Under the pieces are notes generated by a model, which worked only from the letters and a program-made list of their open reading frames with translations, was not told where the DNA came from and did not search any database. Made by a program: the position numbers and the translations under genes. This document shows, piece after piece, positions 1,839-58,840 of a stretch of DNA of 64,000 nt. The stretch is taken from contig NZ_CP051185.1 in NCBI RefSeq assembly GCF_012516315.1, positions 6,267,363-6,331,362 of the forward strand, read 5' to 3'. How positions within the stretch are numbered: position 1 is the first letter of the stretch; every line of letters starts with the position of its first letter. Origin of the DNA: Limnospira fusiformis SAG 85.79 (GTDB taxonomy: Bacteria > Cyanobacteriota > Cyanobacteriia > Cyanobacteriales > Microcoleaceae).

Positions 1839-1887
1839 AGTAAGCGTGGGGGAAAAAACCCACTCAAATCACTAGGAGACAAAAAAC

Positions 1888-2085
1888 ATGGGTACTCAGG
1901 ACCAAGCACGGGCGTTAATGATGGGTCATCACCAAAATATCAAGAACCGTCAGCAATCTATGCTCAACCGTTCGGCTCAAGAAGTAGGTATGGAAGATGT
2001 GGGTGACTACTACAGCACCATCCAAGGGAAACCTAACTCCAATTCAAGTATGAGTTACGATCGCAGTTCCTCATCAATGAGTTAA
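1888..2085 (+). CDS. Small conserved cyanobacterial protein, array copy 1
   Basis: A 65-residue hydrophilic protein with no signal peptide or membrane segment. It has an N-terminal basic/His part (ALMMGHHQNIKNRQQSML), a middle motif DVGDYYSTIQGKP and a Ser-rich tail ending SSSSMS. A strong Shine-Dalgarno sequence AGGAGA sits 8 bases before the ATG. I do not recognise a function; the length and motif pattern suggest a short protein family found in cyanobacteria. This copy has M35-E36 where the next three intact copies have I35-D36, and it carries the only obvious promoter region. Confidence 0.75.
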   Translation: MGTQDQARALMMGHHQNIKNRQQSMLNRSAQEVGMEDVGDYYSTIQGKPNSNSSMSYDRSSSSMS

Positions 2086-2139
2086 AGCACTTCAACCCTT
2101 TTTCAATCAGTTAATTCCATATACTAGGAGACAAAAATC

Positions 2140-2337
2140 ATGGGTACTCAGGACCAAGCACGAGCTTTAATGATGGGTCATCACCAAAATATCAAGAACC
2201 GTCAGCAATCTATGCTCAACCGTTCGGCTCAAGAAGTAGGTATCGACGATGTGGGCGATTATTATAGCACCATCCAAGGGAAACCTAACTCCAATTCAAG
2301 TATGAGTTACGATCGCAGTTCCTCATCAATGAGTTAA
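2140..2337 (+). CDS. Small conserved cyanobacterial protein, array copy 2
   Basis: 65 residues, the same as copy 1 except for I35-D36 in place of M35-E36. The upstream 54-base spacer carries ACTAGGAGAC as ribosome binding site. The repeat period is 252 bases, so gene and spacer were duplicated together. Function unknown. Confidence 0.72.
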   Translation: MGTQDQARALMMGHHQNIKNRQQSMLNRSAQEVGIDDVGDYYSTIQGKPNSNSSMSYDRSSSSMS

Positions 2338-2391
2338 AGCACTTCAACCCTTTTTCAATCAGTTAATTCCATATACTAGGAGACAAAAATC

Positions 2392-2590
2392 ATGGGTACT
2401 CAGGACCGAAGCACGAGCTTTAATGATGGGTCATCACCAAAATATCAAGAACCGTCAGCAATCTATGCTCAACCGTTCGGCTCAAGAAGTAGGTATCGAC
2501 GATGTGGGCGATTATTATAGCACCATCCAAGGGAAACCTAACTCCAATTCAAGTATGAGTTACGATCGCAGTTCCTCATCAATGAGTTAA
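2392..2590 (+). pseudogene. Small protein array copy 3, frameshifted
   Basis: This copy matches its neighbours base for base over most of its length but has one extra G after CAGGACC at about 2407. The reading frame therefore shifts after the fifth codon and the normal protein is not made. Start codon, ribosome binding site and the rest of the body are intact, which points to a recent event or a sequencing error. Confidence 0.8.
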
Positions 2591-2644
2591 AGCACTTCAA
2601 CCCTTTTTCAATCAGTTAATTCCATATACTAGGAGACAAAAATC

Positions 2645-2842
2645 ATGGGTACTCAGGACCAAGCACGAGCTTTAATGATGGGTCATCACCAAAATATCAA
2701 GAACCGTCAGCAATCTATGCTCAACCGTTCGGCTCAAGAAGTAGGTATCGACGATGTGGGCGATTATTATAGCACCATCCAAGGGAAACCTAACTCCAAT
2801 TCAAGTATGAGTTACGATCGCAGTTCCTCATCAATGAGTTAA
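2645..2842 (+). CDS. Small conserved cyanobacterial protein, array copy 4
   Basis: 65 residues, identical in protein sequence to copy 2, with the same spacer and ribosome binding site. Identity at DNA level indicates very recent duplication or gene conversion. Function unknown. Confidence 0.72.
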   Translation: MGTQDQARALMMGHHQNIKNRQQSMLNRSAQEVGIDDVGDYYSTIQGKPNSNSSMSYDRSSSSMS

Positions 2843-2896
2843 AGCACTTCAACCCTTTTTCAATCAGTTAATTCCATATACTAGGAGACAAAAATC

Positions 2897-3094
2897 ATGG
2901 GTACTCAGGACCAAGCACGAGCTTTAATGATGGGTCATCACCAAAATATCAAGAACCGTCAGCAATCTATGCTCAACCGTTCGGCTCAAGAAGTAGGTAT
3001 CGACGATGTGGGCGATTATTATAGCACCATCCAAGGGAAACCTAACTCCAATTCAAGTATGAGTTACGATCGCAGTTCCTCATCAATGAGTTAA
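2897..3094 (+). CDS. Small conserved cyanobacterial protein, array copy 5
   Basis: 65 residues, identical to copies 2 and 4. Its downstream spacer diverges from the repeat after the stop codon, marking the right edge of the recent 252-base amplification. Confidence 0.72.
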   Translation: MGTQDQARALMMGHHQNIKNRQQSMLNRSAQEVGIDDVGDYYSTIQGKPNSNSSMSYDRSSSSMS

Positions 3095-3167
3095 AGGACT
3101 GCAACCCTTTTTAAATTCCTCATTTCAATCTGACTTAATAAATATCAATTAGCGGGAGACCAAAACC

Positions 3168-3362
3168 ATGTGTACTCAAGATGAAGCCAGGGCGCTAATG
3201 ATGCGTCATCATCATAACATCAAGAACCGTCAGCAATCTATGCTCAACCGTTCGGCGCAGGAAGTAGGTATCGATGTTGGGGATTATTATAGCACGATTC
3301 AAGGCAAACCCCATTCCGACTCACGGGATAACTACGATCGCTCCCGAGCTTCGATGAGTTAA
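3168..3362 (+). CDS. Small conserved cyanobacterial protein, diverged array copy 6
   Basis: 64 residues with the same architecture but clear divergence: C2, E6, MRHHHN in place of MGHHQN, one residue lost in the IDVGDYY motif, and an HSDSRDNYDRSRASMS tail. The ribosome binding site is GGGAGA rather than AGGAGA. Because the other copies are almost identical to each other, this is probably the older paralogue that the array grew beside. Conservation of the ALMM, IKNRQQSMLNRSAQEVG and YYSTIQGKP blocks shows that these are under selection. Confidence 0.72.
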   Translation: MCTQDEARALMMRHHHNIKNRQQSMLNRSAQEVGIDVGDYYSTIQGKPHSDSRDNYDRSRASMS

Positions 3363-4873: not shown

Positions 4874-5575
4874 TCACAGGGTTTCTGGATCGATACCCAA
4901 TTCCCGGAGTTTCGCCAAGGCGCGATCGCGTTCTTGTTTTGCCTTATCCCGTTCTTGTTGTGCCTCATTGCGTTCTTGTTGTGCGCGATCGCGTTCATCA
5001 AACAAATCCCCCGGTTCTTTGAACAATTCCCCATTAGGGTGATACACTGCTAAACCATCATCAAACAGCTCAAAGCGAATGTTCAACAGTGGAGAAGTCC
5101 AGGGGAAATCTAGGGGGGTAATTAACACCAAGCTATCTTCGGGGGTAGCCCGTTGAAAACCCCAAAAATTATGGGATTGGGGATTATAAAAATACATCTC
5201 CAGCACGCCATACTGTTGATAAAATTGTTGTTTGGCAGCCATTTCGCTCATGGTGTTACTGGGAGAGAGGATCTCAAACACCACTTGCGGCGGAATGTTG
5301 TCTTCTTCCCACTGTTTATAACTACCGCGCGCGCCATCAGGACGACCTAACACCACCATCGCATCAGGGGCTTGTCTGGGAGCGGGGGGACGTTCTACCT
5401 GGACGGGATACCAGAGTAAATCCCCCGCCACAAAAGCCACTTGTGACTTGAGAAGTTGTTTAAGGTTGCTGACTAGCCGCACAATCCAGCCATACTGGAG
5501 GGTATTTTCCGCCATCGGTTTACCATCAGAGTCGGGGTAGAGGATATGAGGGGGGATAGGAGTTTGAACCATCAT
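4874..5575 (-). CDS. Uma2 family protein (DUF820), array copy 1, three heptads
   Basis: A 233-residue protein of the Uma2/DUF820 family, which has a PD-(D/E)XK nuclease fold and is greatly expanded in cyanobacteria; its cellular target is unknown. The likely catalytic residues are D71 (in APDAMVV), E101 (in VVFEILSPSN) and K115 (in EMAAKQQFYQQYGV). From about residue 193 the protein turns into a charged coiled coil of 7-residue units such as ERDRAQQ, ERNEAQQ and ERDKAKQ, here three before the constant end ALAKLRELGIDPETL. Each copy has its own -10 box about 30 bases upstream. The start is ATGATG; the second ATG is equally possible. Confidence 0.85.
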   Translation of the reverse strand: MMVQTPIPPHILYPDSDGKPMAENTLQYGWIVRLVSNLKQLLKSQVAFVAGDLLWYPVQVERPPAPRQAPDAMVVLGRPDGARGSYKQWEEDNIPPQVVFEILSPSNTMSEMAAKQQFYQQYGVLEMYFYNPQSHNFWGFQRATPEDSLVLITPLDFPWTSPLLNIRFELFDDGLAVYHPNGELFKEPGDLFDERDRAQQERNEAQQERDKAKQERDRALAKLRELGIDPETL

Positions 5576-5604
5576 TCAGTACCCGGATGAATCAATATTC
5601 ACCT

Positions 5605-5610
5605 ATTATA
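5605..5610 (-). promoter_or_regulatory. Promoter -10 box repeated before every Uma2 copy
   Basis: On the minus strand this reads TATAAT, 30 bases before the start codon of array copy 1. The same box lies at the same distance before every other copy (for example 6446-6451), because the 118-base spacer is duplicated with the gene. Each copy could therefore be transcribed on its own. No convincing -35 hexamer is seen. Confidence 0.55.
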
Positions 5611-5693
5611 TAGCGACCCTAGAACGGTTGTGGAATCAGCCCTCGCCCTCAATCTGAATCCCAGAGAGGGACAGGAACTTTTGCTCACAATTA

Positions 5694-6416
5694 TCAGAGG
5701 GTTTCTGGATCGATACCCAATTCCCGGAGTTTCGCAAAGGCGCGATCGCGTTGTTGTTGTGCCTCATTGCGTTCTTGTTGTGCGCGATCGCGTTCTTGTT
5801 TTGCCTCATTGCGTTCTTGTTGTGCGCGATCGCGTTCATCAAACAAATCCCCCGGTTCTTTGAACAATTCCCCATTAGGGTGATACACTGCTAAACCATC
5901 ATCAAACAGCTCAAAGCGAATGTTCAACAGTGGAGAAGTCCAGGGGAAATCTAGGGGGGTAATTAACACCAAGCTATCTTCGGGGGTAGCCCGTTGAAAA
6001 CCCCAAAAATTATGGGATTGGGGATTATAAAAATACATCTCCAGCACGCCATACTGTTGATAAAATTGTTGTTTGGCGGCCATTTCGCTCATGGTGTTAC
6101 TGGGAGAGAGGATTTCAAACACCACTTGCGGCGGAATGTTGTCTTCTTCCCACTGTTTATAACTACCGCGCGCGCCATCAGGACGACCTAACACCACCAT
6201 CGCATCAGGGGCTTGTCTGGGAGCGGGGGGACGTTCTACCTGGACGGGATACCAGAGTAAATCCCCCGCCACAAAAGCTACCTGTGACTTGAGAAGTTGT
6301 TTAAGGTTGCTCACTAGCCGCACAATCCAGCCATACTGGAGGGTATTTTCCGCCATCGGTTTACCATCAGAGTCGGGGTAGAGGATATGAGGGGGGATAG
6401 GAGTTTGAACCATCAT
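5694..6416 (-). CDS. Uma2 family protein, array copy 2, four heptads
   Basis: 240 residues. The body is essentially that of copy 1 with D71, E101 and K115 kept, A65, and four heptads (with ERNEAKQ second and ERNEAQQ fourth) before the FAKLRELG version of the C-terminal end. Confidence 0.85.
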   Translation of the reverse strand: MMVQTPIPPHILYPDSDGKPMAENTLQYGWIVRLVSNLKQLLKSQVAFVAGDLLWYPVQVERPPAPRQAPDAMVVLGRPDGARGSYKQWEEDNIPPQVVFEILSPSNTMSEMAAKQQFYQQYGVLEMYFYNPQSHNFWGFQRATPEDSLVLITPLDFPWTSPLLNIRFELFDDGLAVYHPNGELFKEPGDLFDERDRAQQERNEAKQERDRAQQERNEAQQQRDRAFAKLRELGIDPETL

Positions 6417-6534
6417 TCAGTACCCGGATGAATCAATATTCACCTATTATATAGCGACCCTAGAACGGTTGTGGAATCAGCCCTCGCCCTCAATGTGAAT
6501 CCCAGAGAGGGACAGGAACTTTTGCTCACAATTA

Positions 6535-7216
6535 TCAGAGGGTTTCTGGATCGATACCCAATTCCCGGAGTTTCGCAAAGGCGCGATCGCGTTCTTGTTG
6601 TGCCTCATTGCGTTCTTGTTGTGCGCGATCGCGTTCATCAAACAAATCCCCCGGTTCTTTGAACAATTCCCCATTAGGGTGATACACTGCTAAACCATCA
6701 TCAAACAGCTCAAAGCGAATGTTCAACAGTGGGGAAGTCCAGGGGAAATCTAGGGGGGTAATTAACACCAAGCTATCTTCGGGGGTAGCCCGTTGAAAAC
6801 CCCAAAAATTATGGGATTGGGGATTATAAAAATACATCTCCAGCACGCCATACTGTTGATAAAATTGTTGTTTGGCAGCCATTTCGCTCATGGTGTTACT
6901 GGGAGAGAGGATTTCAAACACCACTTGCGGCGGAATGTTGTCTTCTTCCCACTGTTTATAACTACCGCGCGCGCCATCAGGACGACCTAACACCACCATC
7001 GCATCAGGGGCTTGTCTGGGGACGGGGGGGACGTTCTACCTGGACGGGATACCAGAGTAAATCCCCCGCCACAAAAGCTACTTGTGACTTGAGAAGTTGT
7101 TTAAGGTTGCTGACTAGCCGCACAATCCAGCCATACTGGAGGGTATTTTCCGCCATCGGTTTACCATCAGAGTCGGGGTAGAGGATATGAGGGGGGATAG
7201 GAGTTTGAACCATCAT
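6535..7216 (-). pseudogene. Uma2 family, array copy 3, frameshifted in a G-run
   Basis: The start and first 64 codons are normal, but the run of six G at the codons for ERPP has seven (7024-7030). The frame breaks and a 70-residue product ends in RPQTSP. The rest of the gene, including E101, K115 and two heptads, stays open from 6999 down to 6535. A reversible slip at this run would restore the full protein. Confidence 0.85.
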
Positions 7217-7276
7217 TCAGTACCCGGATGAATCAATATTCACCTATTATATAGCGACCCTAGAACGGTTGTGGAA

Positions 7277-7975
7277 TCAGCCCTCGCCCTCAATCTGAAT
7301 CCCAGAGAGGGACAGGAACTTTTGCTCACAATTATCAGAGGGTTTCTGGATCGATACCCAATTCCCGGAGTTTCGCAAAGGCGCGATTGCGTTTTCATCA
7401 AACAAATCCCCCGGTTCTTTGAACAATTCCCCATTAGGATGATACACAGCTAAACCATCATCAAACAGCTCAAAGCGAATGTTCAACAGTGGAGAAGTCC
7501 AGGGGAAATCTAGGGGGGTAATTAACACCAAGCTATCTTCGGGGGTAGCCCGTTGAAAACCCCAAAAATTATGGGATTGGGGATTATAAAAATACATCTC
7601 CAGCACGCCATACTGTTGATAAAATTGTTGTTTGGCAGCCATTTCGCTCATGGTGTTACTGGGAGAGAGGATCTCAAACACCACTTGCGGCGGAATGTTG
7701 TCTTCTTCCCACTGTTTATAACTACCGCGCGCGCCATCAGGACGACCTAACACCACCATCGCATCAGGGGCTTGTCTGGGAGCGGGGGGACGTTCTACCT
7801 GGACGGGATACCAGAGTAAATCCCCCGCCACAAAAGCCACTTGTGACTTGAGAAGTTGTTTAAGGTTGCTGACTAGCCGCACAATCCAGCCATACTGGAG
7901 GGTATTTTCCGCCATCGGTTTACCATCAGAGTCGGGGTAGAGGATATGAGGGGGGATAGGAGTTTGAACCATCAT
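7277..7975 (-). CDS. Uma2 family protein, array copy 4, altered C-terminus
   Basis: 232 residues. The catalytic body is intact, but where other copies read GCGTTCATC this one has two extra T (near 7395) and no heptads. The frame therefore leaves the normal end, passes the usual stop and continues into the spacer with about 38 foreign residues starting NAIAPLRNSG. The coiled coil is lost, so this may be a damaged copy. Confidence 0.75.
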   Translation of the reverse strand: MMVQTPIPPHILYPDSDGKPMAENTLQYGWIVRLVSNLKQLLKSQVAFVAGDLLWYPVQVERPPAPRQAPDAMVVLGRPDGARGSYKQWEEDNIPPQVVFEILSPSNTMSEMAAKQQFYQQYGVLEMYFYNPQSHNFWGFQRATPEDSLVLITPLDFPWTSPLLNIRFELFDDGLAVYHPNGELFKEPGDLFDENAIAPLRNSGNWVSIQKPSDNCEQKFLSLSGIQIEGEG

Positions 7976-8093
7976 TCAGTACCCGGATGAATCAATATTC
8001 ACCTATTATATAGCGACCCTAGAACGGTTGTGGAATCAGCCCTCGCCCTCAATCTGAATCCCAGAGAGGGACAGGAACTTTTGCTCACAATTA

Positions 8094-8774
8094 TCAGAGG
8101 GTTTCTGGATCGATACCCAATTCCCGGAGTTTCGCAAAGGCGCGATCGCGTTCTTGTTGTGCCTCATTGCGTTCTTGTTGTGCGCGATCGCGTTCATCAA
8201 ACAAATCCCCCGGTTCTTTGAACAATTCCCCATTAGGGTGATACACAGCTAAACCATCATCAAACAGCTCAAAGCGAATGTTCAACAGTGGAGAAGTCCA
8301 GGGGAAATCTAGGGGGGTAATTAACACCAAGCTATCTTCGGGGGTAGCCCGTTGAAAACCCCAAAAATTATGGGATTGGGGATTATAAAAATACATCTCC
8401 AGCACGCCATACTGTTGATAAAATTGTTGTTTGGCAGCCATTTCGCTCATGGTGTTACTGGGAGAGAGGATTTCAAACACCACTTGCGGCGGAATGTTGT
8501 CTTCTTCCCACTGTTTATAACTACCGCGCGCGCCATCAGGACGACCTAACACCACCATCGCATCAGGGGCTTGTCTGGGAACGGGGGGACGTTCTACCTG
8601 GACGGGATACCAGAGTAAATCCCCCGCCACAAAAGCCACTTGTGACTTGAGAAGTTGTTTAAGGTTGCTCACTAGCCGGACAATCCAGCCATACTGGAGG
8701 GTATTTTCCGCCATCGGTTTACCATCAGAGTCGGGGTAGAGGATATGAGGGGGGATAGGAGTTTGAACCATCAT
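8094..8774 (-). CDS. Uma2 family protein, array copy 5, two heptads
   Basis: 226 residues with V65, catalytic residues kept, heptads ERDRAQQ and ERNEAQQ, and the FAKLRELG end. Confidence 0.85.
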   Translation of the reverse strand: MMVQTPIPPHILYPDSDGKPMAENTLQYGWIVRLVSNLKQLLKSQVAFVAGDLLWYPVQVERPPVPRQAPDAMVVLGRPDGARGSYKQWEEDNIPPQVVFEILSPSNTMSEMAAKQQFYQQYGVLEMYFYNPQSHNFWGFQRATPEDSLVLITPLDFPWTSPLLNIRFELFDDGLAVYHPNGELFKEPGDLFDERDRAQQERNEAQQERDRAFAKLRELGIDPETL

Positions 8775-8892
8775 TCAGTACCCGGATGAATCAATATTCA
8801 CCTATTATATAGCGACCCTAGAACGGTTGTGGAATCAGCCCTCGCCCTCAATCTGAATCCCAGAGAGGGACAGGAACTTTTGCTCACAATTA

Positions 8893-9657
8893 TCAGAGGG
8901 TTTCTGGATCGATACCCAATTCCCGGAGTTTCGCAAAGGCGCGATCGCGTTGTTGTTGTGCCTCATTGCGTTCTTGTTGTGCGCGATCGCGTTCTTGTTT
9001 TGCCTTATCCCGTTCTTGTTTTGCCTCATTGCGTTCTTGTTTTGCCTCATTGCGTTCTTGTTGTGCGCGATCGCGTTCATCAAACAAATCCCCCGGTTCT
9101 TTGAACAATTCCCCATTAGGGTGATACACTGCTAAACCATCATCAAAAAGCTCAAAGCGAATGTTCAACAGTGGGGAAGTCCAGGGGAAATCTAGGGGGG
9201 TAATTAACACCAAGCTATCTTCGGGGGTAGCCCGTTGAAAACCCCAAAAATTATGGGATTGGGGATTATAAAAATACATCTCCAGCACGCCATACTGTTG
9301 ATAAAATTGTTGTTTGGCAGCCATTTCGCTCATGGTGTTACTGGGAGAGAGGATTTCAAACACCACTTGCGGCGGAATGTTGTCTTCTTCCCACTGTTTA
9401 TAACTACCGCGCGCGCCATCAGGACGACCTAACACCACCATCGCATCAGGGGCTTGTCTGGGAACGGGGGGACGTTCTACCTGGACGGGATACCAGAGTA
9501 AATCCCCCGCCACAAAAGCCACTTGTGACTTGAGAAGTTGTTTAAGGTTGCTCACTAGCCGGACAATCCAGCCATACTGGAGGGTATTTTCCGCCATCGG
9601 TTTACCATCAGAGTCGGGGTAGAGGATATGAGGGGGGATAGGAGTTTGAACCATCAT
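8893..9657 (-). CDS. Uma2 family protein, array copy 6, six heptads
   Basis: 254 residues with V65 and the FAKLRELG end. The six heptads include two ERNEAKQ units in a row, which shows duplication of single 21-base units. Confidence 0.85.
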   Translation of the reverse strand: MMVQTPIPPHILYPDSDGKPMAENTLQYGWIVRLVSNLKQLLKSQVAFVAGDLLWYPVQVERPPVPRQAPDAMVVLGRPDGARGSYKQWEEDNIPPQVVFEILSPSNTMSEMAAKQQFYQQYGVLEMYFYNPQSHNFWGFQRATPEDSLVLITPLDFPWTSPLLNIRFELFDDGLAVYHPNGELFKEPGDLFDERDRAQQERNEAKQERNEAKQERDKAKQERDRAQQERNEAQQQRDRAFAKLRELGIDPETL

Positions 9658-9775
9658 TCAGTACCCGGATGAATCAATATTCACCTATTATATAGCGACC
9701 CTAGAACGGTTGTGGAATCAGCCCTCGCCCTCAATCTGAATCCCAGAGAGGGACAGGAACTTTTGCTCACAATTA

Positions 9776-10561
9776 TCAGAGGGTTTCTGGATCGATACCC
9801 AATTCCCGGAGTTTCGCTAAGGCGCGATCGCGTTCTTGTTGTGCCTTATCCCGTTCTTGTTTTGCCTCATTGCGTTCTTGTTGTGCGCGATCGCGTTCTT
9901 GTTTTGCCTTATCCCGTTCTTGTTTTGCCTCATTGCGTTCTTGTTGTGCCTCATTGCGTTCTTGTTGTGCGCGATCGCGTTCATCAAACAAATCCCCCGG
10001 TTCTTTGAACAATTCCCCATTAGGGTGATACACAGCTAAACCATCATCAAACAGCTCAAAGCGAATGTTCAACAGTGGAGAAGTCCAGGGGAAATCTAGG
10101 GGGGTAATTAACACCAAGCTATCTTCGGGGGTAGCCCGTTGAAAACCCCAAAAATTATGGGATTGGGGATTATAAAAATACATCTCCAGCACGCCATACT
10201 GTTGATAAAATTGTTGTTTGGCAGCCATTTCGCTCATGGTGTTACTGGGAGAGAGGATTTCAAACACCACTTGCGGCGGAATGTTGTCTTCTTCCCACTG
10301 TTTATAACTACCGCGCGCGCCATCAGGACGACCTAACACCACCATCGCATCAGGGGCTTGTCTGGGAACGGGGGGACGTTCTACCTGGACGGGATACCAG
10401 AGTAAATCCCCCGCCACAAAAGCCACTTGTGACTTGAGAAGTTGTTTAAGGTTGCTCACTAGCCGGACAATCCAGCCATACTGGAGGGTATTTTCCGCCA
10501 TCGGTTTACCATCAGAGTCGGGGTAGAGGATATGAGGGGGGATAGGAGTTTGAACCATCAT
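9776..10561 (-). CDS. Uma2 family protein, array copy 7, seven heptads
   Basis: 261 residues with V65 and seven heptads but the LAKLRELG end, a combination that mixes features of copies 6 and 1. Confidence 0.85.
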   Translation of the reverse strand: MMVQTPIPPHILYPDSDGKPMAENTLQYGWIVRLVSNLKQLLKSQVAFVAGDLLWYPVQVERPPVPRQAPDAMVVLGRPDGARGSYKQWEEDNIPPQVVFEILSPSNTMSEMAAKQQFYQQYGVLEMYFYNPQSHNFWGFQRATPEDSLVLITPLDFPWTSPLLNIRFELFDDGLAVYHPNGELFKEPGDLFDERDRAQQERNEAQQERNEAKQERDKAKQERDRAQQERNEAKQERDKAQQERDRALAKLRELGIDPETL

Positions 10562-10679
10562 TCAGTACCCGGATGAATCAATATTCACCTATTATATAGC
10601 GACCCTAGAACGGTTGTGGAATCAGCCCTCGCCCTCAATCTGAATCCCAGAGAGGGACAGGAACTTTTGCTCACAATTA

Positions 10680-11318
10680 TCAGAGGGTTTCTGGATCGAT
10701 ACCCAATTCCCGGAGTTTCGCAAAGGCGCGATCGCGTTCATCAAACAAATCCCCCGGTTCTTTGAACAATTCCCCATTAGGATGATACACAGCTAAACCA
10801 TCATCAAACAGCTCAAAGCGAATGTTCAACAGTGGAGAAGTCCAGGGGAAATCTAGGGGGGTAATTAACACCAAGCTATCTTCGGGGGTAGCCCGTTGAA
10901 AACCCCAAAAATTATGGGATTGGGGATTATAAAAATACATCTCCAGCACGCCATACTGTTGATAAAATTGTTGTTTGGCAGCCATTTCGCTCATGGTGTT
11001 ACTGGGAGAGAGGATCTCAAACACCACTTGCGGCGGAATGTTGTCTTCTTCCCACTGTTTATAACTACCGCGCGCGCCATCAGGACGACCTAACACCACC
11101 ATCGCATCAGGGGCTTGTCTGGGAGCGGGGGGACGTTCTACCTGGACGGGATACCAGAGTAAATCCCCCGCCACAAAAGCTACCTGTGACTTGAGAAGTT
11201 GTTTAAGGTTGCTGACTAGCCGGACAATCCAGCCATACTGGAGGGTATTTTCCGCCATCGGTTTACCATCAGAGTCGGGGTAGAGGATATGAGGGGGGAT
11301 AGGAGTTTGAACCATCAT
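10680..11318 (-). CDS. Uma2 family protein, array copy 8, no heptads
   Basis: 212 residues, the shortest intact copy. LFDERDRA passes straight into FAKLRELGIDPETL, so it defines the minimal form without the coiled-coil insert. A65 is present. Catalytic D71, E101 and K115 are kept. Confidence 0.85.
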   Translation of the reverse strand: MMVQTPIPPHILYPDSDGKPMAENTLQYGWIVRLVSNLKQLLKSQVAFVAGDLLWYPVQVERPPAPRQAPDAMVVLGRPDGARGSYKQWEEDNIPPQVVFEILSPSNTMSEMAAKQQFYQQYGVLEMYFYNPQSHNFWGFQRATPEDSLVLITPLDFPWTSPLLNIRFELFDDGLAVYHPNGELFKEPGDLFDERDRAFAKLRELGIDPETL

Positions 11319-11436
11319 TCAGTACCCGGATGAATCAATATTCACCTATTATATAGCGACCCTAGAACGGTTGTGGAATCAGCCCTCGCCCTCAATCTGA
11401 ATCCCAGAGAGGGACAGGAACTTTTGCTCACAATTA

Positions 11437-12264
11437 TCAGAGGGTTTCTGGATCGATACCCAATTCCCGGAGTTTCGCTAAGGCGCGATCGCGTTCTTGT
11501 TGTGCCTTATCCCGTTCTTGTTTTGCCTCATTGCGTTCTTGTTTTGCCTCATTGCGTTCTTGTTTTGCCTTATCCCGTTGTTGTTGTGCCTCATTGCGTT
11601 CTTGTTGTGCGCGATCGCGTTCTTGTTTTGCCTTATCCCGTTGTTGTTGTGCCTCATTGCGTTCTTGTTGTGCGCGATCGCGTTCATCAAACAAATCCCC
11701 CGGTTCTTTGAACAATTCCCCATTAGGATGATACACAGCTAAACCATCATCAAACAGTTCAAAGCGAATGTTCAACAGTGGGGAAGTCCAGGGGAAATCT
11801 AGGGGGGTAATTAACACCAAGCTATCTTCGGGGGTAGCCCGTTGAAAACCCCAAAAATTATGGGATTGGGGATTATAAAAATACATCTCCAGCACGCCAT
11901 ACTGTTGATAAAATTGTTGTTTGGCAGCCATTTCGCTCATGGTGTTACTGGGAGAGAGGATTTCAAACACCACTTGCGGCGGAATGTTGTCTTCTTCCCA
12001 CTGTTTATAACTACCGCGCGCGCCATCAGGACGACCTAACACCACCATCGCATCAGGGGCTTGTCTGGGAGCGGGGGGACGTTCTACCTGGACGGGATAC
12101 CAGAGTAAATCCCCCGCCACAAAAGCTACCTGTGACTTGAGAAGTTGTTTAAGGTTGCTGACTAGCCGCACAATCCAGCCATACTGGAGGGTATTTTCCG
12201 CCATCGGTTTACCATCAGAGTCGGGGTAGAGGATATGAGGGGGGATAGGAGTTTGAACCATCAT
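11437..12264 (-). CDS. Uma2 family protein, array copy 9, nine heptads
   Basis: 275 residues, the longest copy. Nine heptads occur, including a repeated three-unit block (ERDRAQQ, ERNEAQQ, QRDKAKQ), so both single and multi-unit duplications have taken place. It has A65 and the LAKLRELG end. Confidence 0.85.
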   Translation of the reverse strand: MMVQTPIPPHILYPDSDGKPMAENTLQYGWIVRLVSNLKQLLKSQVAFVAGDLLWYPVQVERPPAPRQAPDAMVVLGRPDGARGSYKQWEEDNIPPQVVFEILSPSNTMSEMAAKQQFYQQYGVLEMYFYNPQSHNFWGFQRATPEDSLVLITPLDFPWTSPLLNIRFELFDDGLAVYHPNGELFKEPGDLFDERDRAQQERNEAQQQRDKAKQERDRAQQERNEAQQQRDKAKQERNEAKQERNEAKQERDKAQQERDRALAKLRELGIDPETL

Positions 12265-12382
12265 TCAGTACCCGGATGAATCAATATTCACCTATTATAT
12301 AGCGACCCTAGAACGGTTGTGGAATCAGCCCTCGCCCTCAATGTGAATCCCAGAGAGGGAGAGGAACTTTTGCTCACAATTA

Positions 12383-13126
12383 TCAGAGGGTTTCTGGATC
12401 GATACCCAATTCCCGGAGTTTCGCTAAGGCGCGATCGCGTTCTTGTTTTGCCTCATTGCGTTCTTGTTGTGCGCGATCGCGTTCTTGTTTTGCCTTATCC
12501 CGTTGTTGTTGTGCCTCATTGCGTTCTTGTTGTGCGCGATCGCGTTCATCAAACAAATCCCCCGGTTCTTTGAACAATTCCCCATTAGGATGATACACAG
12601 CTAAACCATCATCAAACAGCTCAAAGCGAATGTTCAACAGTGGAGAAGTCCAGGGGAAATCTAGGGGGGTAATTAACACCAAGCTATCTTCGGGGGTAGC
12701 CCGTTGAAAACCCCAAAAATTATGGGATTGGGGATTATAAAAATACATCTCCAGCACGCCATACTGTTGATAAAATTGTTGTTTGGCAGCCATTTCGCTC
12801 ATGGTGTTACTGGGAGAGAGGATCTCAAACACCACTTGCGGCGGAATGTTGTCTTCTTCCCACTGTTTATAACTACCGCGCGCGCCATCAGGACGACCTA
12901 ACACCACCATCGCATCAGGGGCTTGTCTGGGGACGGGGGGACGTTCTACCTGGACGGGATACCAGAGTAAATCCCCCGCCACAAAAGCCACTTGTGACTT
13001 GAGAAGTTGTTTAAGGTTGCTGACTAGCCGCACAATCCAGCCATACTGGAGGGTATTTTCCGCCATCGGTTTACCATCAGAGTCGGGGTAGAGGATATGA
13101 GGGGGGATAGGAGTTTGAACCATCAT
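12383..13126 (-). CDS. Uma2 family protein, array copy 10, five heptads
   Basis: 247 residues with V65, five heptads and the LAKLRELG end. Catalytic residues are kept. Confidence 0.85.
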   Translation of the reverse strand: MMVQTPIPPHILYPDSDGKPMAENTLQYGWIVRLVSNLKQLLKSQVAFVAGDLLWYPVQVERPPVPRQAPDAMVVLGRPDGARGSYKQWEEDNIPPQVVFEILSPSNTMSEMAAKQQFYQQYGVLEMYFYNPQSHNFWGFQRATPEDSLVLITPLDFPWTSPLLNIRFELFDDGLAVYHPNGELFKEPGDLFDERDRAQQERNEAQQQRDKAKQERDRAQQERNEAKQERDRALAKLRELGIDPETL

Positions 13127-13244
13127 TCAGTACCCGGATGAATCAATATTCACCTATTATATAGCGACCCTAGAACGGTTGTGGAATCAGCCCTCGCCCT
13201 CAATCTGAATCCCAGAGAGGGAGAGGAACTTTTGCTCACAATTA

Positions 13245-13882
13245 TCAGAGGGTTTCTGGATCGATACCCAATTCCCGGAGTTTCGCAAAGGCGCGATCGC
13301 GTTCATCAAACAAATCCCCCGGTTCTTTGAACAATTCCCCATTAGGATGATACACAGCTAAACCATCATCAAACAGCTCAAAGCGAATGTTCAACAGTGG
13401 AGAAGTCCAGGGGAAATCTAGGGGGGTAATTAACACCAAGCTATCTTCGGGGGTAGCCCGTTGAAAACCCCAAAAATTATGGGATTGGGGATTATAAAAA
13501 TACATCTCCAGCACGCCATACTGTTGATAAAATTGTTGTTTGGCAGCCATTTCGCTCATGGTGTTACTGGGAGAGAGGATCTCAAACACCACTTGCGGCG
13601 GAATGTTGTCTTCTTCCCACTGTTTATAACTACCGCGCGCGCCATCAGGACGACCTAACACCACCATCGCATCAGGGGCTTGTCTGGGAGCGGGGGACGT
13701 TCTACCTGGACGGGATACCAGAGTAAATCCCCCGCCACAAAAGCTACCTGTGACTTGAGAAGTTGTTTAAGGTTGCTGACTAGCCGGACAATCCAGCCAT
13801 ACTGGAGGGTATTTTCCGCCATCGGTTTACCATCAGAGTCGGGGTAGAGGATATGAGGGGGGATAGGAGTTTGAACCATCAT
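13245..13882 (-). pseudogene. Uma2 family, array copy 11, frameshifted in the same G-run
   Basis: The G-run at 13692-13696 has five G instead of six, so the first 75-residue frame ends early (ERPPLPDKPLMRWWC). The remaining 140 codons stay open, with no heptads and the FAKLRELG end. This is the opposite slip to copy 3 at the identical position. Confidence 0.85.
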
Positions 13883-14100
13883 TCAGTACCCGGATGAATC
13901 AATATTCACCTATTATATAGCGACCCTAGAACGGTTGTGGAATCAGCCCTCGCCCTCAATCTGAATCCCAGAGAGGGACAGGAACTTTTGCTCACAATTA
14001 TCAGAGGGTTTCTGGATCGATACCCAATTCCCGGAGTTTCGCTAAGGCGCGATCGCGTTCTTGTTGTGCCTCCTCTTTTGCCTTGCGTTCTTGTTTTGCC

Positions 14101-14802
14101 TCATTGCGTTCTTGTTTTGCCTCCCTGTTGTGCCTCATTGCGTTCTTGTTGATCGCGTTCTTGTTTTGCCTTATCCCGTTGTTGTTGTGCCTCATTGCGT
14201 TCTTGTTGTGCGCGATCGCGTTCATCAAACAAATCCCCCGGTTCTTTGAACAATTCCCCATTAGGATGATACACAGCTAAACCATCATCAAACAGTTCAA
14301 AGCGAATGTTCAACAGTGGGGAAGTCCAGGGGAAATCTAGGGGGGTAATTAACACCAAGCTATCTTCGGGGGTAGCCCGTTGAAAACCCCAAAAATTATG
14401 GGATTGGGGATTATAAAAATACATCTCCAGCACGCCATACTGTTGATAAAATTGTTGTTTGGCAGCCATTTCGCTCATGGTGTTACTGGGAGAGAGGATC
14501 TCAAACACCACTTGCGGCGGAATGTTGTCTTCTTCCCACTGTTTATAACTACCGCGCGCGCCATCAGGACGACCTAACACCACCATCGCATCAGGGGCTT
14601 GTCTGGGAGCGGGGGGACGTTCTACCTGGACGGGATACCAGAGTAAATCCCCCGCCACAAAAGCTACCTGTGACTTGAGAAGTTGTTTAAGGTTGCTGAC
14701 TAGCCGCACAATCCAGCCATACTGGAGGGTATTTTCCGCCATCGGTTTACCATCAGAGTCGGGGTAGAGGATATGAGGGGGGATAGGAGTTTGAACCATC
14801 AT
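14101..14802 (-). CDS. Uma2 family protein, array copy 12, scrambled heptad tract
   Basis: 233 residues. The body is normal, but the heptad tract has suffered several small deletions (for example KQERDQQERNEAQQGG), which shift the frame so that the protein ends in GGKTRTQ instead of GIDPETL. The lost tract continues in another frame to about 14001. It is likely a damaged copy, or a region that is hard to assemble. Confidence 0.7.
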   Translation of the reverse strand: MMVQTPIPPHILYPDSDGKPMAENTLQYGWIVRLVSNLKQLLKSQVAFVAGDLLWYPVQVERPPAPRQAPDAMVVLGRPDGARGSYKQWEEDNIPPQVVFEILSPSNTMSEMAAKQQFYQQYGVLEMYFYNPQSHNFWGFQRATPEDSLVLITPLDFPWTSPLLNIRFELFDDGLAVYHPNGELFKEPGDLFDERDRAQQERNEAQQQRDKAKQERDQQERNEAQQGGKTRTQ

Positions 14803-14920
14803 TCAGTACCCGGATGAATCAATATTCACCTATTATATAGCGACCCTAGAACGGTTGTGGAATCAGCCCTCGCCCTCAATGTGAATCCCAGAGAGGGAGA
14901 GGAACTTTTGCTCACAATTA

Positions 14921-15580
14921 TCAGAGGGTTTCTGGATCGATACCCAATTCCCGGAGTTTCGCAAAGGCGCGATCGCGTTCTTGTTGTGCGCGATCGCGTT
15001 CATCAAACAAATCCCCCGGTTCTTTGAACAATTCCCCATTAGGATGATACACAGCTAAACCATCATCAAACAGTTCAAAGCGAATGTTCAACAGTGGGGA
15101 AGTCCAGGGGAAATCTAGGGGGGTAATTAACACCAAGCTATCTTCGGGGGTAGCCCGTTGAAAACCCCAAAAATTATGGGATTGGGGATTATAAAAATAC
15201 ATCTCCAGCACGCCATACTGTTGATAAAATTGTTGTTTGGCAGCCATTTCGCTCATGGTGTTACTGGGAGAGAGGATCTCAAACACCACTTGCGGCGGAA
15301 TGTTGTCTTCTTCCCACTGTTTATAACTACCGCGCGCGCCATCAGGACGACCTAACACCACCATCGCATCAGGGGCTTGTCTGGGGACGGGGGGACGTTC
15401 TACCTGGACGGGATACCAGAGTAAATCCCCCGCCACAAAAGCCACTTGTGACTTGAGAAGTTGTTTAAGGTTGCTGACTAGCCGCACAATCCAGCCATAC
15501 TGGAGGGTATTTTCCGCCATCGGTTTACCATCAGAGTCGGGGTAGAGGATATGAGGGGGGATAGGAGTTTGAACCATCAT
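14921..15580 (-). CDS. Uma2 family protein, array copy 13, one heptad
   Basis: 219 residues with V65, a single ERDRAQQ heptad and the FAKLRELG end. It is the first complete gene of the array in the direction of transcription. Confidence 0.85.
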   Translation of the reverse strand: MMVQTPIPPHILYPDSDGKPMAENTLQYGWIVRLVSNLKQLLKSQVAFVAGDLLWYPVQVERPPVPRQAPDAMVVLGRPDGARGSYKQWEEDNIPPQVVFEILSPSNTMSEMAAKQQFYQQYGVLEMYFYNPQSHNFWGFQRATPEDSLVLITPLDFPWTSPLLNIRFELFDDGLAVYHPNGELFKEPGDLFDERDRAQQERDRAFAKLRELGIDPETL

Positions 15581-15698
15581 TCAGTACCCGGATGAATCAA
15601 TATTCACCTATTATATAGCGACCCTAGAACGGTTGTGGAATCAGCCCTCGCCCTCAATCTGAATCCCAGAGAGGGAGAGGAACTTTTGCTCACAATTA

Positions 15699-15760
15699 TC
15701 AGAGGGTTTCTGGATCGATACCCAATTCCCGGAGTTTCGCCAAGGCGCGATCGCGTTCTT
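15699..15760 (-). pseudogene. Stub of a fourteenth Uma2 copy
   Basis: The full 118-base spacer is followed by the last roughly 20 codons of the family (reading RALAKLRELGIDPETL on the minus strand), and homology stops abruptly near 15760. The rest of this copy has been lost, which marks the right edge of the array. Confidence 0.75.
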
Positions 15761-15919
15761 TTTGGCAGGGGGATTTAGGGTAATGGATAATGATATGATG
15801 ATGCGGGAGGCTAAAGCTGTTAATTACATTGACCACCTACCATATTAATCAACCCGCCTTAACCCCCATTTTGGGGGCGACTTATTACTTAGTATATATT
15901 GATAAGTATCTCTATGTAA
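15761..15919. other. Array edge with response-regulator terminator
   Basis: No gene. A perfect hairpin CCCCCA-TTT-TGGGGG at 15863-15877 lies about 45 bases beyond the response-regulator stop codon and may end its transcript. Confidence 0.5.
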
Positions 15920-30086: not shown

Positions 30087-36333
<6,247 letters not shown>

Positions 36334-49124: not shown

Positions 49125-52022
49125 ATGTTAACAGATATTGCTCCAGGGGCACGAATTCTTTGCCGGGATGCTGAATGGTTGGTTAAATCTGTGGCCCTGT
49201 CTTCTGATGGCGATCGCATTATTGAAGCAGTGGGAGTGTCGGAATTTCTCCGGGGTCGTCGTATTCGCTTCCTGGAAGAGTTGGAAAAAAAAGACAGGAA
49301 ACGGGGTTTACAAGTGTTGAAACCCGAAGAGACTCATTTGGTTATTGATGAAACTTCTGGTTATGTCCGTAGTTTATTATTTGTTGAGGCGAATTTAAAG
49401 CAAACTATCCCGGAAGATGGGCGGATTTATTGGGGACATAAAGCCGCTATGGATGCCCTGAATTATCAGCTTATTCCGGCGACTAAAGCCCTACAAATGC
49501 CTCGCCAACGCTTGTTAATTGCTGATGCGGTGGGGTTGGGTAAAACTCTGGAATGTGGTATCCTGGTAACTGAGTTAATTGGGAGGGGGAAAGGTCGCCG
49601 GATTTTAGTGGTTACTACTAAGTCAATGATGGGGCAGTTTCAAAAGGAGTTTTGGCTGCGGTTTACTATTCCTTTGGTGCGTTTGGACTCTGGGGAAATT
49701 CAACGAGTGCGATCGCGACTTCCGGGAAATCATAACCCTTTTCACTATTATGACCGGACAATTATTTCTATTGATACCCTCAAACAAGACCGGGAATATC
49801 GCAGTTATTTGGAACAGGCTCACTGGGATATTATTATAATTGATGAAGCCCATAATGTCGCCCGCAGAGGTAAGGGTCAGTCGGCTTCGCAGCGGGCGAA
49901 ATTGGCTGAACGTTTAGCTACTCGTTCGGATACTTTGATTTTGCTTTCCGCTACTCCCCATGACGGGAAACCGGAGAGTTTTGCTAGTTTGATGAATATG
50001 CTAGATCCGACGGCGATCGCTAATGAAAGTAACTACACTAAAAATGATATCCATGACCTCTATTTGCGGCGGTTTAAAAAAGATGTTTTGCGGGATTTAA
50101 ACCAAAGTATCCCTGAACGGAATGTGGAACCTGTAGAAGCGATCGCCTCCCCCCCAGAAGAGGCGGTTTTTCGGAAACTCCACGATTTGCAATTGGTCAG
50201 TATTGACCGAGGCAAAAGTGCCGGACAGCTATTTAAAACTACTCTCCTAAAGGCATTCTTATCTAGTCCGGCTGCGGGTCTGGAAACCGTGCAAAATCGC
50301 CTGAAAACTTTACAGAAAAAGCTGGATATCTCCACGGAATTAGACCAGGCAGAATTGACTGATTTGGCGGCAGGTTTGGCGGCAATAGATCAGGGGAGTT
50401 TTTCTAAGTATCAGCGACTTATCCAACTGATTAAAACTGAGTTTCAGTGGACTGGAAAAGACCCCAAAGACCGCTTGGTTATTTTTACCGGACGTTTGGA
50501 AACTTTGCGGTTTCTGGAGGCGGAACTACCCCAAGACTTGCGCTTAAAACCAGAGGCGATCGCTCGTTTAGATGGGGGTATGGCAGATATTGACCAAGTG
50601 GAAATTGTCGAGAAATTTGGCTATGAAAATTCCCCGGTGAGGATTTTAATTGCTACGGAAGTGGCATCAGAAGGGTTAAACCTGCACTATCTTAGCCATA
50701 AATTGATTCACTTTGATATCCCTTGGTCGTTGATGACTTTACAGCAGCGAAACGGACGGATCGACCGCTACGGACAAACTCGAAAACCGGAAATTCGCTA
50801 TCTGCTGACTCGCTCCCAGGTTGAACGTATGGATGAGGTGGAGCGTATTATTAAAGTACTTTTAACTAAGGATGAACAGGCGATTAAAAATATTGGCGAT
50901 CCTTCCGTATTTATGGGGGTATTTGACCCGGAAAAAGAAGAAAATTTGACCGCTGCTGCTATTGAAAGCGGAGTGTCGGCGGCGGATTTTGCCGAGGAGT
51001 TAGACCGCAACGCCAAGGGAGAGGGAGATGTCGATATTTTTAGCTGGTTTGAGTCGGAGTCTGGGGATACTGATGAGGGGGTTTCCATGGACTCTAGCCA
51101 GGGTGAACCTCTGGTGGAAACGGGGAGTTTGTTAAGTCTATTTCCGTCGATTTTTCAGTTTACCGCTACGGCTTTAAGGTTCATTAATTCCCAGACCAGT
51201 CCGGTTCATAATCTCCAAATTAACGAAGATGAAGGGTTTATTGAATTGCAACTTCCTCAAGAGCTAAAAAGCCGTTACGATCGCCTTCCTAAAGAAATAC
51301 AACCCCAGGATAATCGGTTATTATATCTTAGCGATCGCCCCGAAGATATGATGCGGGCCATGGAACAAGCGCGAACCGAAGACGCGGACTGGTCGGCTGT
51401 TCAATACCTTTGGGAATTGCATCCTTTGGTAGAATGGATTAGCGATCGCTGTTTATTTTATTTTGGCAGACATCAAGCACCTGTGATACAATTATCTCAG
51501 GGATTAGAATCCGATGAGGTGATTTTTATCTGCTTTGGTAGTTTCCCCAACCGCCGAGGAACTTCCGTCCTAAATCGCTGGGTTTCGGTTATCTTTAAAC
51601 AAGGGAAATTTCAGCGGGTTGAACCCTTTGCGGAAACTCAGAAACGCACGGAATTAGGACTGCATGAGTTGCCCAATTCCGGGACGGTTAATATTGATGA
51701 TTTACTCCCTTTACGGAGTCCGGCTATTCAGCAAGCGCGGCAATATCTTCAGCAGGAAAGGCAACGGTTTCAAGACCAGTTAAATCCTCAGTTAGAGGCA
51801 CAACGGGAACGCCTGGAAAGGCTGCAAGGCTATCATGTGGAACAGTTAGAGTTGCGGTGGGAAAGTGATAATATTTCGGCTAATCTGAAGCAGGATAAAC
51901 AGCAGAAAGAACGCCATAAAATTGACAAGATATTCCAAGATTATCGCGATTGGGTAGAGTTGTCAATGACTACGGAAAGCGAACCTTATCTCAAGTTAAT
52001 TTTTGTGATTCAGCAAGCATAG
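49125..52022 (+). CDS. SNF2/HepA-type helicase, DISARM DrmD-like
   Basis: 965 residues. Superfamily 2 motor with Walker A ADAVGLGKTLE (about residue 134), DEAH box IIIIDEAHN (about 239), LLSATPHDG and, in the C-terminal lobe, ATEVASEGLNL and QQRNGRIDRYGQ. This is the layout of SNF2-like helicases such as RapA and the DrmD protein of class 1 DISARM. It begins 86 bases after the CHAT operon and precedes a large methylase and a DUF1998-type helicase on the same strand. C-terminal 250 residues are helical without a known domain. Confidence 0.85.
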   Translation: MLTDIAPGARILCRDAEWLVKSVALSSDGDRIIEAVGVSEFLRGRRIRFLEELEKKDRKRGLQVLKPEETHLVIDETSGYVRSLLFVEANLKQTIPEDGRIYWGHKAAMDALNYQLIPATKALQMPRQRLLIADAVGLGKTLECGILVTELIGRGKGRRILVVTTKSMMGQFQKEFWLRFTIPLVRLDSGEIQRVRSRLPGNHNPFHYYDRTIISIDTLKQDREYRSYLEQAHWDIIIIDEAHNVARRGKGQSASQRAKLAERLATRSDTLILLSATPHDGKPESFASLMNMLDPTAIANESNYTKNDIHDLYLRRFKKDVLRDLNQSIPERNVEPVEAIASPPEEAVFRKLHDLQLVSIDRGKSAGQLFKTTLLKAFLSSPAAGLETVQNRLKTLQKKLDISTELDQAELTDLAAGLAAIDQGSFSKYQRLIQLIKTEFQWTGKDPKDRLVIFTGRLETLRFLEAELPQDLRLKPEAIARLDGGMADIDQVEIVEKFGYENSPVRILIATEVASEGLNLHYLSHKLIHFDIPWSLMTLQQRNGRIDRYGQTRKPEIRYLLTRSQVERMDEVERIIKVLLTKDEQAIKNIGDPSVFMGVFDPEKEENLTAAAIESGVSAADFAEELDRNAKGEGDVDIFSWFESESGDTDEGVSMDSSQGEPLVETGSLLSLFPSIFQFTATALRFINSQTSPVHNLQINEDEGFIELQLPQELKSRYDRLPKEIQPQDNRLLYLSDRPEDMMRAMEQARTEDADWSAVQYLWELHPLVEWISDRCLFYFGRHQAPVIQLSQGLESDEVIFICFGSFPNRRGTSVLNRWVSVIFKQGKFQRVEPFAETQKRTELGLHELPNSGTVNIDDLLPLRSPAIQQARQYLQQERQRFQDQLNPQLEAQRERLERLQGYHVEQLELRWESDNISANLKQDKQQKERHKIDKIFQDYRDWVELSMTTESEPYLKLIFVIQQA

Positions 52023-52190
52023 AAACCCGGTTTCTTTGTCGAGAAGTCTAGAAACCCGGTTTCTTTGAGAAACCGGGTTTCTTATCCTTGAGAAGCCGAG
52101 AAACCCGGTTTCTTTGAGAAACCGGGTTTCTTATCCTTGAGAAGCCGAGAAACCCGGTTTCTTTGAGAAACCGGGTTTCTTATCCCTGGG
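52020..52190. repeat. Palindrome array left of the RAYT gene
   Basis: Four copies of GAAACCCGGTTTC, three of them paired with GAAACCGGGTTTC five bases further on, with 18-20-base linkers such as ATCCTTGAGAAGCC. It starts at the helicase stop codon and ends at the transposase stop. Confidence 0.88.
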
Positions 52191-52203
52191 TTTCTTTTAG
52201 CTT

Positions 52204-52779
52204 CTATTCATCAAGTAGTAAGTGCTGAATTGATGAGGTTTGGATATGACTTTCGACAAAAGACTGATAATCATTCACCGAATTAAAAAGCGATCGCACC
52301 CCATCAATTTTCGGCAAAGTTCCCCCACGCAATTGGAGATATTCGGGATAGCTAGAAAACTCCCAATCTTCGGGTTTTTTAACCAAATTAGCCTTAACTG
52401 GGTTTAAATGAATATATCGTGTTAAATGGAATAAATATTCATCATTATCAACAGCGATCGCTTGAAATCTACCTTGAAATAAACCGCCAACCCTGTCATA
52501 CTGCTTGTTAATTGCTTTCACATAAGACAAGCTAAATTTTTGCATCACCTCAGAAAAACAATTCTGTTTCAAATATACCAATAAATGATAATGATTAGGC
52601 ATCAAACAATAAGCAATAATATCAGCCACATTAGATTCAACCAAATATTTTCTAATCAGGCGCAAAAAATGAATATAGTTGTCTTGGGTAAAAAAGATAA
52701 TTTGATGATTATTACCTCGATTATAAATATGGTAGTAATGACCCGTTTCAAAAACAATTTTGCGACGTGGCATTTCCAA
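52204..52779 (-). CDS. REP-associated tyrosine transposase (RAYT, IS200-like Y1)
   Basis: 191 residues. It has the Y1 HUH signature PNHYHLLVYL and the later tyrosine-bearing segment LTRYIHLNPVKANLV, and FETGHYYHIYNRGNN near the start, as in RAYT proteins. RAYTs nick single-stranded REP hairpins and are thought to spread them. Here the gene is flanked on both sides by arrays of the island palindrome, whose hairpin is the expected substrate. Opposite strand to the defence genes. Confidence 0.88.
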   Translation of the reverse strand: MEMPRRKIVFETGHYYHIYNRGNNHQIIFFTQDNYIHFLRLIRKYLVESNVADIIAYCLMPNHYHLLVYLKQNCFSEVMQKFSLSYVKAINKQYDRVGGLFQGRFQAIAVDNDEYLFHLTRYIHLNPVKANLVKKPEDWEFSSYPEYLQLRGGTLPKIDGVRSLFNSVNDYQSFVESHIQTSSIQHLLLDE

Positions 52780-52829
52780 TCAACTCCCACAACTTCAACT
52801 TTTATAACTCCGTTAAATTTTAGCGCAAG

Positions 52830-53326: not shown

Positions 53327-53394
53327 GGTCGTGAGTAGTGTAAAATGAAAATTTACAGGGTTTCTTTGACTATAAGCCGGGGTTATCGAATATT

Positions 53395-58780: not shown

Positions 58781-58840
58781 GGGTTTCTTATCCCCCAATT
58801 GTTAATTGTTAATTATTAATTATTAATTAAGAGAAGAGAG

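Follow-up and report, generated by a model that had tools for sequence, protein, structure and literature searches.

Tandem arrays of Uma2 genes whose copies share an almost fixed nuclease body, vary in the length of a helical tail and have the same length less often than expected by chance were found in the genome of Limnospira fusiformis SAG 85.79 (G000), a cyanobacterium related to edible spirulina, and in that of the nearest relative compared, Arthrospira sp. PCC 9108 (G001, CP066886.1). The window analysed is a stretch of 64,000 nt of the former genome (NZ_CP051185.1, assembly GCF_012516315.1, positions 6,267,363-6,331,362) and carries one such array, designated A, of 13 tandem Uma2 units on the minus strand at window positions 4874-15580. 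The arrays may be single-gene families of Uma2 nucleases, amplified in tandem, whose number of seven-residue helical units (heptads) acts as a discrete specificity setting, a reading given slightly less than an even chance. More tentatively, the large arrays could be length-coded sets, in which selection removes copies of equal repeat number and so keeps the nucleases insulated from one another or spanning different distances, the code having arisen independently in several arrays with different heptads and been re-formed in two species. The rarity of equal lengths suggests that tail length itself may matter. The multi-array pattern is stronger than the observation in the window alone, and the mechanism is put forward as a proposal.

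The window array and its turnover

Array A contains the start sites of one gene in 13 units of 702-946 bp (the last unit counted without spacer). Intact open reading frames (ORFs) of 219 amino acids (aa) with 1 heptad, 247 aa with 5, 275 aa with 9, 212 aa with 0, 261 aa with 7, 254 aa with 6 and 226 aa with 2 are present in units 1 (14921-15580), 4 (12383-13126), 5 (11437-12264), 6 (10680-11318), 7 (9776-10561), 8 (8893-9657) and 9 (8094-8774), followed by 240 aa with 4 heptads in unit 12 (5694-6416) and 233 aa with 3 in unit 13 (4874-5575), the last unit, which has a different 3' flank. Ordered by size, the nine intact copies (212, 219, 226, 233, 240, 247, 254, 261 and 275 aa) carry 0-7 and 9 heptads, and the step between them is a 21-bp unit encoding seven residues, sited ahead of a constant C-terminus. 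The remaining four units, with heptads counted by DNA length, are unit 2 (14001-14802), broken within the heptad region and fitting 8 heptads minus 5 nt, unit 3 (13245-13882), with a body 1 nt short and 0 heptads, unit 10 (7335-7975), with 2 extra nt at the junction of body and tail and 0 heptads, and unit 11 (6535-7216), with 1 extra nt in the body and 2 heptads. When these are included every count from 0 to 9 occurs, the missing 8 being supplied by unit 2, and the other three share their length with an intact copy. If 4 of 13 copies were broken at random, all remaining lengths would differ with a chance of 53/715 (hand count), so the distinctness of the intact copies in array A proves little by itself.

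The bodies of the intact A copies have a mean identity of 99.0 % (minimum 98.1 %), and 12 of 190 codons vary, through 12 synonymous changes and one replacement, giving a ratio of replacement to synonymous polymorphism (pN/pS) of 0.02. Within the arrays of both species mean body identity is 94.5-99.8 %, and pN/pS is about 0.02-0.28 in eight of ten arrays and 0.55 in both E arrays, values that rest on few changes in array C (2) and in array E (6 in each array). The comparison for L. fusiformis E covered 10 of its 11 intact copies and omitted one of 277 aa, in which the heptads are scrambled. Recombination is indicated in array A by 36 of 55 informative site pairs that misfit any single tree; the one informative site pair of L. 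fusiformis E gave no incompatibility. Copies of arrays D and E cluster by species with a support of 1.0; clustering by species is less clear in array B, of which the first copy pairs across species. The bodies of five E copies are identical over the 612 nt compared, while the copies are 257, 299, 306, 313 and 320 aa long; length therefore changes far more quickly than the body does.

The window locus is shared with PCC 9108, where the adjoining gene (413 aa), presumably argJ, agrees in start and length. Against 13 copies in L. fusiformis, PCC 9108 has three here, two of them broken, with 2, 5 and 0 heptads. Array size and lengths thus turn over between species. The order of lengths along the arrays differs between the two genomes, so the series seem to have been remade rather than inherited as such. 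The bodies look homogenised within each species, mostly under purifying selection. These results bear out what an earlier sequence-only reading of the window had reported, namely 13 tandem units, placed at 4874-15760, with the counts given above, intact lengths of 212-275 aa in steps of seven with nearly every length present, and a nearly fixed body with a variable number of heptads, and the turnover that it had anticipated was observed.

Equal-length copies across arrays

Seven arrays with at least six copies are present in L. fusiformis, and the sequence of the repeats differs from array to array. Read in transcription order, array B (291, 277, 249, 284, 263, 242, 270, 256 and 235 aa) and array D (217, 231, 252, 245, 259, 224, 280, 294, 287, 273, 266 and 238 aa) each form a complete series without a repeated length, with 9 copies on 9 consecutive lengths and 12 copies on 12. 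Array C (242, 228, 256, 263, 270 and 235 aa) places 6 copies on 6 of 7 lengths, array F (260, 295, 302, 246, 253, 253, 281, 309, 295, 288, 268 and 274 aa) places 12 copies on 10 lengths, two of them repeated, and array E has 11 intact copies out of 17 (271, 277, 264, 313, 293, 306, 299, 278, 285, 320 and 257 aa). Array G (L009, G000:C1:1534384-1543787) reads 231, 266, 273, 266, 266 and 238 aa in position order; it interleaves two distinct Uma2 genes on opposite strands, the heptads varying in one and the other being constant in length (five of six ORFs of 196 aa, one of 163 aa). The corresponding arrays of PCC 9108 are B (242, a broken copy of 263, 256, 284, 249, 277, 277, 270 and 235 aa), D (238, 245, 266, 266, 238, 231, 259, 252, 245 and 224 aa) and E (292, 271, 278, 306, 285 and 257 aa). 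A first count of heptads by short anchors partly failed for B, D, E and F, and a BLAST-based count was used instead.

Pairs of equal length were compared with a null of independent uniform draws over the observed length range with both ends occupied, under which coincidences are fewer than under any peaked distribution over the same range. Among intact copies, the 13 arrays of the two species hold 11 equal-length pairs against 36.9 expected (P < 1/20000), and with broken copies included 15 arrays hold 25 against 51.5 (P < 1/20000). For PCC 9108 alone the counts are 4 against 10.2 in three arrays of intact copies (P = 0.002) and 5 against 12.5 in five arrays with all copies (P = 0.00065). Taken singly, the intact L. 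fusiformis arrays give P = 0.0001 (D), 0.002 (B), 0.005 (E), 0.007 (A), 0.010 (F), 0.085 (C), 0.67 (I) and 0.68 (K). Common descent would make equal lengths commoner, not rarer. A null in which a duplicate must differ from its parent gave P = 0.0005-0.0125 for L. fusiformis A, B, D, E and F, and 0.07 and 0.13 for PCC 9108 D and B. The two species do not provide fully independent arrays, and the arrays to be counted were chosen by the analyst; left out were array J (1107196-1111794; 284, 313, 291 and 278 aa, all different and off the seven-residue grid), two-copy sets, and, in PCC 9108, the two-copy counterparts of F and G and the partly broken counterpart of I, and lengths of 268, 277 and 293 aa were rounded to the nearest heptad. 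Along the arrays neighbouring lengths are not clearly more alike than others (sum 240 against 267, P = 0.054), and only array D shows likeness on its own (P = 0.02).

A neutral origin, in which general tandem amplification is combined with a drifting 21-bp minisatellite and the missing equal lengths come from luck and the choice of arrays, is considered unlikely, at the upper end of what that word covers. Such amplification is widespread: 53 stretches of tandem repeats (at least two copies) were found in 28 of 40 sampled 20-kb regions of the same genome, the regions being hand-picked from 60 random draws with known Uma2-array regions among the 20 omitted, which makes the sample less than fully random, and tandem amplification is therefore not special to Uma2. 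The repeat lengths of G and H, the window array when its broken copies are counted, and some other nested repeats (L132 and L128) that vary in span, as those of L124 do, also fit a neutral origin. Against it stand the combined deficit of equal pairs, which holds for intact and for all copies, and eight neutral forward simulations, in which zero equal pairs were reached in 0-0.4 % of comparable arrays and two or fewer in 6-17 %; none occurs among the intact copies of A, B and D, which belong to the five largest arrays of L. fusiformis. A further point against drift is locus L142, which has 19 nested repeats of period 14/21 bp, mostly 193 bp apart, with one span in 15 of 19. At L150 (period 14/21) the same nested span occurs in eight of eight. 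Both loci suggest that nested repeats need not differ and that the assembly keeps equal copies. Elsewhere in the controls, L156:9795-19995 is a 10-kb stretch of diverged tandem repeats of several periods.

The assembly itself could have produced the pattern if near-identical copies of equal length had been collapsed so that each length was left once, an explanation regarded as improbable. The SAG 85.79 genome was assembled from Nanopore reads of >35 kb with Shasta and then polished with PEPPER and Illumina reads. Reads of this length outspan the arrays, including the 11-kb window array, for which the counts of units and heptads are credible for that reason. Equal spans (L142) and copies of equal length (F, G and H) are also retained by the same assembly, and the PacBio assembly of PCC 9108 has the deficit too. 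Collapse would be favoured by the scrambled heptads in the broken E copies and in unit 2 of array A, which suggest a mixed consensus, and by short polishing reads that may have lacked unique placement in the repeats. Single-base frameshifts in array copies are less credible, since polishing may have missed errors at sites to which short reads cannot be assigned.

Nuclease body and helical tail

Six of six proteins scanned match Uma2 (PF05685) above the Pfam curated cut-off of 27 bits, two window copies with 56.1 and 57.2 bits and four proteins from B, D, E and F with 49.3-85.1 bits; the endonuclease is called 'putative' in Pfam's own description. Residues P70, D71, E101 and K115, which we take to be the PD...E...K catalytic set, do not vary among the 45 sequences compared, which include three window copies, and the nuclease site thus seems to be intact. 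An AlphaFold2 model of the 9-heptad A copy (unit 5; mean predicted local distance difference test score, pLDDT, 81.9) consists of a core and one continuous helix at residues 188-267. Foldseek matched this model to 9y1l (E = 6.9e-6), 3ot2 (E = 9.9e-6) and 1wdj (E = 2.0e-5), so that it agrees with the fold of solved DUF820 structures, which include 3ot2 and 1wdj, at moderate template modelling (TM) scores by target of 0.45-0.57. The PADLOC model PDC-S03, presumably a phage defence candidate, matched four of four array proteins weakly (A, E = 1.5e-7; E, 1.3e-4; F, 2.5e-9; B, 1e-9).

The sequence-only reading had described the tail as a coiled coil. In the repeat of the longest A copy one Ala per heptad is the sole hydrophobic residue and 54 % of the tail is charged, which makes that description doubtful for the window array; it fits array B better, with its regular Leu/Val pattern. 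In C, D and F the tails contain Ala and lack a bulky core; in E they contain Leu and Ala. The tails can therefore safely be called helical heptads, whereas coiled coil would be an unsafe term for all of them but perhaps those of B.

A rigid arm that acts as a ruler without any pairing code would account for such tails: the helix would span a fixed gap from the nuclease core to a constant C-terminal cap, and the set of lengths would cover a range of distances. It is judged no likelier than the neutral origin, is a version of the last step of the explanation proposed here, and its probability is not to be added to that of the latter. The tails of A, C, D and F, with little or no bulky hydrophobic core, the single continuous helix of 80 residues predicted for the longest A copy, and an LRxLGIDP-like cap that ends the proteins of many arrays (E and I lack it) favour a ruler, as does the change in the gap of the recognised site described for the TAEL repeats of EcoR124 (PMC10327210). 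The Leu/Val pattern of array B argues against it and suits pairing.

The best precedent, by analogy, is Rpn (COG5464), described as a nuclease of the PD-(D/E)XK kind, its C-terminal helix differing by four-residue repeats and its genes lying in tandem arrays; there, only RpnCS of equal repeat number blocks RpnCL, and one extra repeat abolishes the block (PMC10327210). Whole-repeat variation of a C-terminal helix, tandem arrays formed by direct duplication and a gene number that varies between strains are points of likeness. The Rpn repeats have four residues and vary between strains, whereas those found here have seven and vary within one array, and Rpn has an internally translated antitoxin. 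An internal small antitoxin of this kind was rejected as a general feature of the arrays: of seven scanned, A, B, C, F and G showed no internal start with a Shine-Dalgarno-like site and D only a weak one. In array E (L020) all 10 intact copies examined have, immediately ahead of the repeat helix, a TTG preceded by a strong Shine-Dalgarno-like site, and a TTG candidate start is found at the same place in six of six copies of PCC 9108 E; it is a good candidate internal start as in Rpn, and array E alone has one. No match to an Rpn family was found in Pfam (six proteins) or NCBIfam (four proteins), and the Uma2 array genes are not shown to be members of Rpn.

In EcoR124I and EcoR124II the number of TAEL repeats (2 or 3) is described as changing the gap of the recognised site (PMC10327210), and the likeness is that the repeat number of a short amino-acid unit shifts specificity stepwise; these are, in contrast, two enzymes, not an array of paralogues and not Uma2. 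Uma2 has been described as a likely solo toxin found mostly in cassettes of paralogous genes (PMC2701414), and these cyanobacterial Uma2/DUF820 cassettes are of the same family, with no series of tail lengths mentioned in the available part of that account. In the Synechocystis hydrogenase operon, DUF820 proteins have been reported to neighbour toxin-antitoxin genes (PMC4963859), and an expansion of Uma2 together with tandem Rpn arrays in Thermosynechococcus (PMC9403480). A literature search returned no title or abstract start naming such a length series, most subscription journals lying outside its coverage.

Diversity-generating retroelements have template and variable repeats, adenine-specific changes and a reverse transcriptase; the variation seen in array A lies in repeat number, with few, mostly synonymous, body changes. 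The sequence-only reading had said that the array looked like a diversity-generating locus; a dedicated locus of that sort is not supported, many kinds of tandem repeat being common in the genome, and the lengths look like the outcome of expansion, contraction and recombination of 21-bp repeats. Its suggestion of selection for different lengths is still a matter of inference and has gained statistical backing from the pooled deficit of equal pairs.

Proposed mechanism and wider context

The explanation proposed here would proceed in four steps. The gene would have been duplicated in tandem, an outcome seen as one locus with 3 or 13 copies in two species. Recombination would keep the bodies alike, as the incompatible sites and the clustering of D and E by species indicate, while purifying selection (pN/pS < 1) would keep them functional. 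The 21-bp repeats would expand and contract fast, giving identical bodies of very different length. Finally, a copy equal in length to another would tend to be lost or broken, as the deficit of pairs suggests. Length might matter because subunits pair only at the same repeat number, as in Rpn, or because a rigid arm sets a distance; by analogy, either use of heptad number would make equal-length copies redundant or cross-talking, which fits the deficit. The likely setting would be that of a toxic nuclease in phage defence.

Several results weigh against this explanation, beside the few changes behind pN/pS in C and E. The length rule is not strict: lengths are repeated in PCC 9108 D (three) and B (one) and in L. 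fusiformis F (two), array G holds three copies of 266 aa and array H two of 246 aa, and G and H go the opposite way from the deficit (P = 0.94 and 0.98). The intact arrays of PCC 9108 are not significant singly (D, 0.095; B, 0.125; E, 0.147), nor are A (P = 0.10) and E (P = 0.23) on their own when broken copies are counted, and some of the breaks in array copies may be sequencing error or mixed consensus. Simulated selection that purges equal lengths left only 3-10 % of arrays without equal pairs, below the observed share, in runs of 336 and 20 arrays. The scarcity or absence of bulky hydrophobic residues makes coiled-coil pairing doubtful in A, C, D and F, and five of the seven arrays scanned lack the internal start of an Rpn-like antitoxin.

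Uma2 (PF05685) matches number 135 in the L. fusiformis genome and 82 in PCC 9108. In two more genomes of the family, of 5 and 10 contigs, the matches (97 and 88) are dispersed save for a few neighbours and form no large arrays, and arrays of such size thus occur in only two (Limnospira/Arthrospira) of the four genomes listed in full. A search with a D-type protein over 61 genomes of the family, many of them fragmented assemblies, gave large tandem sets only in L. fusiformis and PCC 9108 among the matches listed. In a scan of named genomes, 11 of 79 loci, two of them from PCC 9108, had at least two ORFs matching the array A body, a count that takes in fragments and opposite-strand neighbours; no array as large was found in the 79 loci, where larger ones could be missed owing to 10-kb flanks and many short contigs. 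The viral_contigs scan gave no relative of the longest D copy.

Upstream of unit 1, at approximately 15699-15765, the minus-strand sequence keeps what is left of one more unit, its 3' end, in line with 14 C-terminal matches to 13 bodies. Between it and unit 1 lies a 118-bp spacer (15581-15698, minus strand) with a TATAAT-type promoter-like site (15639-15610) identified by consensus match only. A site of this type is found at the same place ahead of 13 of 13 A units, also by consensus match; the total over the A region, 16, is not above that of shuffled sequence (15.5), and the signal is weak. A +1-frame ORF through the A heptads was rejected as a gene, as one codon variant stops the frame and it is not kept in all copies, and antisense ORFs over the heptads are expected, as 21-bp units leave frames open.

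Other repeats occur elsewhere in the window. At 1871-3310 a 252-bp unit is present 5.6 times and, as read by eye, codes for a short protein starting MGTQDQARALMMGHHQN. Clusters of AGAAACCGGGTTTCTT-type repeats lie at 52021-53328 and 58294-58789, and the ORF at 58252-58683 is largely made of them. An ORF of 1955 aa on the plus strand (30087-35954) has a membrane-like segment and tandem 255-bp repeats that run in frame, with no stop, into a downstream part which we take to be rpoB. In four relatives the rpoB match starts at residue 254-262 of a 400-residue query, and in PCC 9108 it is split over two frames; the run-on may be due to chance or to an indel in the L. fusiformis genome.

If tail length is a code, the arrays would offer a ready-made set of almost identical nucleases distinguished by a single integer, on which the way repeat number governs protein pairing or reach could be tested directly. 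A deficit of equal copies within a paralogue family, such as the one found here, may point to selection that would escape a comparison of the bodies alone. The explanation, if true, would give one reason why some cyanobacteria retain so many genes of Uma2, a family whose role is a prediction so far.

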